Assembly (NCBI GenBank): GCA_034401135.1
Contig: JAWZSP010000002.1
Span: 930,001 to 994,000 of the forward strand
Direction of reading: 5' to 3'
Length of the DNA: 64,000 bases
Source: Volutella citrinella
Taxonomy: Eukaryota; Ascomycota; Sordariomycetes; Hypocreales; Nectriaceae
Shown: positions 45,974-47,356 of the stretch, piece after piece
Position numbering within the stretch: position 1 is the stretch's first letter
Layout: each line of letters begins with the position of its first letter
Notes under the pieces: generated by a model
Told to the model about the DNA's origin: nothing
Seen by the model: the letters and a program-made list of their open reading frames with translations, nothing else
Databases searched by the model: none
Program-made: the position numbers and the translations under genes

Positions 45974-47226
45974 AATCTAGGACGGATTTTGGAGCTGGTA
46001 TAAGCTGGTGAGCGGTGATAGGGGTTGTTTGGTCTTGTGCCGGTGACGAAGCGTAGGGTTTCGATGAGGAGGAGTGAGGATTTTTATATGAACAGGTGAA
46101 GCTCCCCGGAGCTGTCTATTGATAGAAAGTCGCACGTCTTTAAACATGTGATTGCGTCAAGTGGCGTCTTGCAATGATTCACGCGACGTGTTGAGTTGTA
46201 CAGTCACTTGCCAGACCGACCTGCGGCACGGTAGTCGCGCCAGGTGGCAGAGGGGCATGAGGACGAAGCTTTGGCAAGTAGATTATGAAACTGGAAGGAA
46301 CTACTGTCTGTGCATGGCGAGGTCTATTGTAAAATGTATGACCTCTGATCCGCCAGCATCTGAGTTGAACCTATGGAGTCAAAGTGCAGGTGTCGATAGG
46401 AAACGTTGACGATGTCATGGTGGATGTACGATATAGGTCTGTCTTGGCCGCACTGGATGAGCTGGATGTCACATCCGATATATGTTACACCTGAGAGCCG
46501 TCACGCACAATACGTGCCTGCATGCGACCGGCTGTCCAGGGAAGCCTGCGATGCCGAGTGACCTTCGTGCCGCGGCAGATGATTCATGGCCAAGAGCGCT
46601 GTCTGCAATACTAGTACATGGCGCACCTCCTACTTGCATCCTGCATTTGCCGATACTCTCAGACAAGCTTGAGGGTATCACTGAGAGTTGGGAGGGTGTC
46701 TATCATACGACTCCACGTAGGCGTGTCTCGGGAGAATTGCGGAATTGAGTTGCAATGTAGTGAGATGCAGCTTCGGTAATACCTCATATCAGTCGGACGG
46801 AGATGATTGCGACGGGCTTAGGGTGCTGGCCCATTATTTGCCTGGAGCTTGGCCACAGCCCCTGTGTCTCCATGATACGACACCTCCATAAGTCATTGTC
46901 CAAATTCGTATTCAATGTCAATTCGATTACTGAACAGCTTTGTGTAATATGCGTCGCCGACTGTGCAAAATCAGCTTTCAATTCCCTCACTGCGTGCTAT
47001 CGGAGTACCCATAGAGATGCGCCAAGTACTAGTAGTGGACCCTTCATAGTTTGGTTTGGTGTTGGTGATGCTTTTGGGCTAGTGCGCTTGTCTCCGTTCT
47101 CCATCAAAAAGACGAGTATGTGCAGCTCGGATGAGACTCTGCCCGCCTGGGGATGCTTGTGACACAAAAAGAATACCTTTCAAAAGCACAAAAAAAGGAA
47201 TTGACTGTTGGACAGCCATTGGTTTG
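45974..47226. other. Intergenic region
   Basis: About 1.25 kb with the promoter of the small gene on its left. No further protein gene is supported; the right end carries the Pol III terminator of the tRNA gene. Confidence 0.5.
47190..47196 (-). terminator. Pol III T-run downstream of tRNA-Phe
   Basis: Seven A on the plus strand, i.e. seven T on the transcribed-sense minus strand, 30 bases past the tRNA 3' end. A run of this length is an efficient RNA polymerase III stop. Confidence 0.6.
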
Positions 47227-47356
47227 TGCGGTTTGTGTGGATCGAACACACGACCTTCAGATCTTCAGTCTGACGCTCTCTGTGAAAGATTGTTAGACTT
47301 GAGTGGGCTGGAGTTTTGATGAGAAGATTCTCTTACCCCAACTGAGCTAAACCCGC
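47227..47356 (-). tRNA. trnF(GAA): tRNA-Phe (GAA) interrupted in the D-loop
   Basis: Minus strand. Exon parts 47356-47337 (20 nt) and 47279-47227 (53 nt) make a 73-nt cloverleaf: acceptor GCGGGTT with AAACCGC, D-arm GCTC..GAGC, anticodon stem TCAGA/TCTGA with loop CTGAAGA (anticodon GAA), variable AGGTC, T-arm GTGTG TTCGATC CACAC, discriminator A. The only mispair seen is G5 opposite A68. Box A (TAGCTCAGTTGG) and box B (GTTCGATCC) are intact. A 57-nt insert separates nucleotides 20 and 21 of the D-loop. There is no insert at the canonical 37/38 intron site. If functional, transcripts need a non-canonical splicing step; otherwise this is a disrupted copy. Confidence 0.88.
47280..47336 (-). other. 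57-nt spliceosomal-like intron inside tRNA-Phe
   Basis: On the minus strand it begins GTAAGA, contains CTAAC 13 nt before the 3' end (counted from the branch A), and ends TTTCACAG. These are the same signals and length as the protein-coding introns in this window. A 5-bp hairpin (GAGAA-TC-TTCTC) lies next to the donor. Exact excision restores the tRNA. No clean target-site duplication is visible. Confidence 0.7.

Follow-up and report, generated by a model that had tools for sequence, protein, structure and literature searches.

Spliceosomal-type introns in at least ten tRNA genes of the fungus Volutella citrinella

A tRNA-Phe(GAA) gene of Volutella citrinella was found to be interrupted in its D loop by an insert with the splice-site and branch-site motifs of a spliceosomal intron, and inserts of the same type were found in at least ten tRNA genes of this genome: four of tRNA-Phe, two of tRNA-Cys, one of tRNA-Thr(CGT) and three of elongator tRNA-Met. 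The gene lies in a stretch of 64,000 nucleotides (contig JAWZSP010000002.1, positions 930,001 to 994,000), here called the window, and the genome searched was the 45.1-Mb assembly of 26 contigs. Of two proteins encoded in the window, one matched Fusarium best (76% identity) and the other Verticillium (68% over half of the query), with named Hypocreales next, in line with a Sordariomycete close to Hypocreales or Glomerellales. Judging from the sequences, we estimate at roughly 85% the probability that the locus is a working RNA polymerase III gene for tRNA-Phe with a U2-type intron removed by the spliceosome, and that it is one of a wider class. The mRNA splicing machinery would probably have to remove the inserts before these tRNAs can work. 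The first-pass annotation had treated the tRNA-Phe insert as a single oddity, a view superseded by the set of at least ten genes. It had also left a choice between an RNA polymerase III transcript processed by an unusual route and a disabled gene copy; the former is favoured here, and the comparison of the copies and of their exons makes the latter unlikely.

The tRNA-Phe gene of the window and its copies

The tRNA-Phe(GAA) gene is located on the minus strand at 47356-47227 and is interrupted by a 57-nt insert between G20 and A21. Exon 1 (tRNA positions 1-20; 47337..47356, 20 nt) includes the A box TAGCTCAGTTGG (47338-47349), and exon 2 (positions 21-73; 47227..47279, 53 nt) includes the anticodon GAA (47264-47266) and the B box (47238-47248). 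The insert (47280..47336; GTAAGA...TCTAACAATCTTTCACAG) starts with the 5' splice site GTAAGA (47331..47336), contains the branch-site motif CTAAC (47292..47296), the fourth letter of which is the branch A, followed by 13 nt up to the intron end, and terminates with the 3' splice site AG (47280..47281) in the context CACAG. Its boundary can be drawn in two equivalent registers that differ by one G, GT-AG being one of them. A run of seven T (47190..47196) on the same strand is likely to be the RNA polymerase III terminator, and T-runs of at least 5 were also found 3' of the other nine genes, that is downstream of all ten intron-bearing ones. The position, length and motifs which the first-pass annotation had assigned to the insert were exact. 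Its claim that removal of the insert gives a 73-nt tRNA-Phe with intact D, anticodon and T arms was confirmed as well, since the joined exons form a 73-nt cloverleaf in which these arms are complete; the acceptor stem, which that claim did not concern, has a single mismatch, G5.A68. With the cloverleaf, the GAA anticodon, the A and B boxes and the T-run, the locus has what a functional gene would be expected to have. Mismatches at acceptor position 5-68 were observed in three tRNAs: G.A in this tRNA-Phe (47227-47356), C.A in the divergent tRNA-Phe L060 and T.C in tRNA-Thr(CGT).

Such genes can be missed or misnamed by tRNA annotation. ARAGORN run without introns detected no tRNA in the window; with introns allowed, it named the tRNA-Phe gene tRNA-Glu and the most divergent of its copies tRNA-Ser. 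The Rfam tRNA model scored the gene at 22.2 bits, the cut-off being 29. Since a tRNA-Phe is misnamed as tRNA-Glu by ARAGORN, the phenomenon may be commoner than has been noticed.

With a 151-nt query that included the whole insert, two loci were matched on contig C2 and two on C5, the latter 271 bases apart. Every one of the four tRNA-Phe genes detected with this body has the insert, always at the same site. Both exons are identical in the four copies (0/73 differences in 6/6 pairs), whereas the inserts show 3, 5, 6, 17, 19 and 19 pairwise differences over 57-61 aligned columns, and the 60 bases upstream show 25-34 differences over 64-67 columns. What is kept in the variable introns is GTAAG(A/T), CTAAC and the AG end. 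In L004, the fourth and most divergent copy, the insert is 54 nt long and has GTAAGT, TCTAAC and TTAG. Because the other three introns are close to one another (3-6 of 57), the contrast between exons and introns comes mostly from this copy. An assembly error as the source of the insert was ruled out because the arrangement recurs at four loci, spread over two contigs, where the exons are identical and the inserts differ.

No uninterrupted copy was found by BLAST of the spliced tRNA-Phe sequence against the whole genome at E up to 10, and a pattern for exon 2 with up to 3 mismatches matched the four tRNA-Phe genes, four tRNA-Cys genes and nothing else. A pattern permitting an intron at position 37/38 detected a fifth nuclear tRNA-Phe(GAA) gene, L060 (contig C5, pattern match at 4310244-4310287, minus strand), with a canonical 16-nt 37/38 intron. 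Its body is very different, its anticodon arm is the same as in the four copies, its acceptor stem contains the mismatch C5.A68, and it is possibly a chimaeric or recruited tRNA. As to intact tRNA-Phe genes elsewhere in the genome, which the first-pass annotation had proposed to look for as a sign that the window copy is disrupted, none with the same body lacks the insert, and the divergent L060 has the normal 37/38 intron. The existence of L060 means that the supply of tRNA-Phe may not rest wholly on the four insert-bearing genes. These genes are therefore not proven indispensable; their exons are not decaying, and the selection that probably acts on them is suggested by their conservation and not by need.

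The idea that the insert might have introner-like copies elsewhere was not supported at this search sensitivity, since the 151-nt query matched the four tRNA-Phe loci only. Near-identical copies at many unrelated sites, as expected of introners, were not seen with the tRNA-Phe insert, the only one queried, in a search that could miss diverged copies. Stretches of tRNA-Phe had no match in genome_contigs, and stretches of tRNA-Phe or tRNA-Met had none in viral_contigs, both being collections poor in fungi. In contig C16, clusters of tRNA genes repeat about every 37.6 kb, and such clusters recur in C26 and at the beginning of C10; they are probably mitochondrial DNA left in several contigs, and the tRNA-Phe genes in these presumed mitochondrial clusters are ordinary.

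Inserts in tRNA-Cys, tRNA-Thr(CGT) and elongator tRNA-Met genes

Two of the four tRNA-Cys genes found, L039 on contig C1 and L040 on C2, have inserts of 58 and 59 nt at 24|25 with the pattern GTATG...CTAAC...CAG. Two copies on C1 (L013 being a locus of this kind) have no insert. The exons of the intron-bearing pair differ at 2/72 positions and the introns at 17/60. The two exon changes are T5.G68 versus C5-G68 and one base of the D loop. A compensated stem pair was also seen, A29-T41 in the intron-bearing genes and G29-C41 in the intronless ones, and all the exon changes are structure-keeping.

The tRNA-Thr(CGT) gene L081 (contig C2: 3333480-3333720) has a 51-nt insert, similarly at 24|25, with GTGAGT...CTAAC...TAG. 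As a single copy it stands outside the comparison of exon and intron divergence. With the acceptor mismatch T5.C68, the gene is possibly weak or in decay.

All three elongator tRNA-Met genes found (L083 and L084 on contig C3, L085 on C4) have an insert of 54-55 nt at C34|A35, inside the anticodon CAT. We take these genes to be elongator tRNA-Met because of the CAT obtained after joining and their likeness to yeast tRNA-Met. The pattern of the first intron is GTTRGT...CTAAC...CAG. Three nucleotides downstream of it is a second intron, of 25-26 nt at 37/38, with an inner hairpin TGATC/GATCA in one copy and TGGCC/GGTCA in two. The two introns are of different types, so that one tRNA would need both splicing machines. 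The exons are the same in all copies (0/74 differences in 3/3 pairs), while their first introns show 18-22 differences over 57 columns. Two other readings of this arrangement were rejected. If the whole insert were one long 37/38 intron, C34 would be joined to the 3' exon and the anticodon arm would have 14 nt instead of 17 (by eye). A pairing of TATGA with TCATA between anticodon and intron, considered as a sign that the spliceosome acts first, is not feasible because the two pieces are 1 nt apart and unable to pair.

BLAST of the spliced tRNA-Met sequence at E up to 10 gave three loci only, each as a two-piece match, and no uninterrupted elongator tRNA-Met gene. Of the arguments for removal of such introns, this absence is the strongest. 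It has to be read with the fact that BLAST missed L060, so that an equally divergent uninterrupted elongator tRNA-Met gene could have escaped.

Splice motifs, pattern searches and alternative explanations

The ten inserts are 51-59 nt long, start with GT, have G at +5, contain CTAAC and end with AG, with 10-13 nt following the branch A. Their 5' sites are GTAAGA (three times), GTAAGT, GTATGA, GTATGG, GTGAGT, GTTAGT (twice) and GTTGGT; GT-AG ends with a 5' splice site of the fungal kind were found in 10/10, and so was CTAAC at a normal distance from the 3' end. An excerpt of PMC5832005 gives RCTRAY, located 6-36 nt from the acceptor, as the fungal branch-site pattern, and the inserts fit it except that in 7/10 a T precedes CTAAC where R is expected. 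As CTAAC was the search word for the tRNA-Thr and tRNA-Met genes, this motif is built in for them; independent support in these two families is provided by the GT and AG ends, by the junctions at those ends that restore a tRNA and by the intron lengths. The tRNA-Phe and tRNA-Cys genes were located by exon or by the original finding, not via CTAAC. The full grammar (GTNNG, CTAAC whose A lies 10-13 nt from the end, AG, total length 51-59 nt) was matched by 10 of 1,688,040 segments in 94 kb on both strands, where the ten include the four tRNA-Phe genes and the 10-13 spacing was set after seeing the data. A chance origin of this grammar in the tRNA-Phe insert is unlikely. A de novo scan for mRNA introns gave 172 raw candidates, of which 48, at 29 distinct 5' sites, passed the GC3 filter; eight of the 29 sites had the branch motif and a length of 51-80 nt. 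This gives a hint that the local mRNA introns look like the tRNA inserts, the scan being too noisy for a matrix.

Conserved exons together with variable introns were found for tRNA-Phe, tRNA-Met and tRNA-Cys. The contrast between exons and introns in the tRNA-Phe and tRNA-Met pairs gave Fisher p values from 0.08 to 7e-10, for pairs that are not independent. Since the exons are unchanged or changed in a pair-keeping way while the inserts diverge, the exons appear to evolve as tRNA and the inserts as introns.

The word patterns used for finding further genes were in each case rarer than in the reversed control. An A box followed by GTAAG occurred at 14 places (58 in the control), namely the four tRNA-Phe genes and 10 places that are not tRNA. 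The combination of A box, GTANG and CTAAC occurred at 24 places (63 in the control), comprising four tRNA-Phe genes, two tRNA-Cys genes and 18 places not tRNA-like by eye. The wider CTAAC pattern, the source of the tRNA-Thr and tRNA-Met genes, matched 160 places (479 in the control), 100 of which were listed, and a narrower follow-up pattern matched 51, all listed (152 in the control). Among these 51, 29 were read as tRNA genes, namely the 10 intron-bearing ones, seven tRNA-Gln, 10 tRNA-Glu, one tRNA-Ser and one intronless tRNA-Cys; the other 22 are not tRNA by eye (L082, L086 and L088 were fetched). CTGAC was tried as the branch motif and rejected: it gave 71 places, below the reversed control, and none was tRNA by eye. 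As the counts are lower than in the reversed controls, word frequency is no argument, and it is the tRNA context that carries the case. The search with RF00005 scored 63 of 1,061 candidates and the tRNA census is therefore incomplete; introns 3' of the B box, other branch motifs and other B boxes were incompletely covered. A cluster of tRNA-Glu(CTC)-like genes was observed on both strands of contig C3 at 976697-982316 (L089 is one of them), with apparent 37/38 introns that differ in sequence.

Two alternatives to removal by the spliceosome deserve weighing, and we consider both very improbable. According to the first, they are introns of the tRNA type in unusual places, and the tRNA splicing endonuclease cuts them via a bulge-helix-bulge as in the red alga Cyanidioschyzon or in archaea. 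Introns of this kind outside 37/38, including D-loop ones with bulge-helix-bulge motifs, are described in an excerpt of PMC3978253. Some pairing is also available: in a simple test at offsets 0-4 and 1-5, exon and intron ends paired over 3-5 bp in 9/10 genes (TGGG with TTCA or CTTA in the four tRNA-Phe copies), and a pairing of GTTG with CAAT at a distance of 7-9 nt from the 3' cut is possible in 4/4 tRNA-Phe copies. However, the inserts lie at 20|21, 24|25 and 34|35 and not at 37/38, the position expected of endonuclease introns in nuclear genes. Shuffled introns reached at least 3 bp in 1,791 of 2,000 cases, so that pairings of 3-5 bp say little, and four hand-picked canonical 37/38 introns reached 6-8 bp, compared with 0-5 bp across the ten genes. 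No convincing bulge-helix-bulge thus emerged from this test. Moreover, the best pairing, 5 bp in the tRNA-Cys gene L039, is missing in its paralogue L040, the tRNA-Thr gene has none, and GTNNG, CTAAC and AG in all ten inserts are not predicted by the endonuclease model.

The second alternative, to which we give just as little credence, is that intron-like elements inserted into tRNA genes and disabled them, the tRNAs being supplied by other genes. Possible suppliers do exist, namely L060 with its normal 37/38 intron and the two intronless tRNA-Cys genes. Pseudogenes would nevertheless hardly show exons that stay unchanged while the inserts diverge, as in the four tRNA-Phe and three tRNA-Met copies, or exon changes that keep base pairs, as in tRNA-Cys; in addition, no uninterrupted elongator tRNA-Met gene was found with the spliced query and no dispersed copies of the tRNA-Phe insert with the 151-nt one. 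Least credible is retention of the insert in the RNA, as a tolerated enlargement of the D loop or because other RNAs are the products of the loci. The length of D loops is variable and tRNA-Phe has intact T and anticodon arms, but inserts retained in the D stem of tRNA-Cys and tRNA-Thr or in the anticodon of tRNA-Met would destroy the tRNA, and the splice motifs are kept while the remaining insert sequence changes.

Proposed processing, origin and comparison with known systems

If the inserts are removed by the spliceosome, the internal A and B boxes, intact on either side of the insert, would direct transcription of the tRNA-Phe gene by RNA polymerase III, and transcription would stop at the T-run. 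The insert could then be recognized like an mRNA intron by its GTAAGA, the CTAAC branch site and CAG, and its removal would restore the D arm before the tRNA matures, with folding and end processing following splicing. In the tRNA-Met precursor the 37/38 intron would be removed as well, presumably by the tRNA splicing endonuclease. We also consider it likely that these genes represent an obligatory second route of tRNA splicing, in which RNA polymerase III pre-tRNAs of at least four families are cut by the spliceosome, at three positions or more, and the anticodon of elongator tRNA-Met is restored by it; all elongator tRNA-Met and most tRNA-Phe gene copies would then depend on the spliceosome.

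In the textbook view, the introns of tRNAs and those of mRNAs are handled by two separate machines. If the spliceosome cuts tRNA introns, translation in this fungus would rely on it directly through tRNA supply, beyond its role for mRNAs, and the spliceosome would be able to act on RNA polymerase III pre-tRNAs. The genes would also provide cases of intron gain in short RNAs whose structure is known, and these gains could be dated among relatives. As the insertion sites differ by family and their contexts (GGG|A, GAG|C, GTG|C and CTC|A) are unlike, at least three separate gains are likely. Speculatively, the introns may have originated by reverse splicing into an RNA that was then copied back into the gene. 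The ancestral tRNA-Phe probably had a 37/38 intron, as in Neurospora, and reverse splicing into the mature tRNA-Phe would explain why the four copies gained a D-loop intron and have none at 37/38.

In searches of an open-licence library of papers, no title or opening of an abstract announced spliceosomal introns in tRNA genes, a provisional result since subscription journals are mostly outside this literature. Similarly, no spliceosomal tRNA introns were reported in the excerpts of yeast-genome papers within that literature, and an excerpt of one of them (PMC5499181) treats spliceosomal introns as belonging to RNA polymerase II transcripts and keeps tRNA introns separate. As far as we have seen, the kind of intron is known, and what is new is the tRNA host, the number of families and the position inside the anticodon.

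The canonical 37/38 introns likewise interrupt tRNA genes and are present in this genome too, in the tRNA-Phe L060, in tRNA-Lys and others (detected by ARAGORN) and in elongator tRNA-Met and tRNA-Glu (read by eye). The new introns differ from them in their sites (20|21, 24|25 and 34|35), in their spliceosomal motifs and in having no exon-intron helix like that of the four canonical introns tested in this genome. In common with the new introns, those of Cyanidioschyzon merolae and archaea occupy the D loop and other places in tRNA genes; in the excerpt of PMC3978253 they are tied to the bulge-helix-bulge, whereas no helix above the level of shuffled introns was found here.

Closer parallels come from other small RNAs of fungi. 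According to an excerpt of PMC5832005, frequent interruption by introns is known for no small structured RNAs other than U3 and U6. The fungal U3 introns described there, common in Pezizomycotina, are ordinary spliceosomal introns whose host is a small structured RNA, and paralogues with and without the intron coexist in one genome, like those of tRNA-Cys here; the host in that case is a snoRNA and not a tRNA. For U6, a Trichoderma promoter 'with 1st intron' appears in an excerpted table of PMC9518982.

In the genome analysed here, the U6 snRNA gene L059 (1353-1562 of this locus; contig C4, match at 4224003-4224062) has two spliceosomal-type introns, of 50 nt with CTGAC and of 56 nt with GTCCGT and CTAAT, one of which lies directly 5' of ACAGAGA. 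After joining, ACAGAGA and the U6 core that follows it are kept. Two U6-like genes, L057 (C2: 4256403-4256508) and L058 (C3: 5044332-5044432), are intronless and have GCATTTCCCC in place of the GCATGGCCCC of L059. Spliceosomal introns in fungal U6 snRNA genes were reportedly described by Canzler and co-workers in 2016, in a paper whose title is said to speak of multiple insertions. The U6 introns are analogous to those of the tRNA genes in that their host is a short, structured RNA which RNA polymerase III normally transcribes, with two of them in a U6 gene of this very genome. They differ in that the host here is tRNA, that at least four families and three sites are involved, and that the tRNA processing route is still required.
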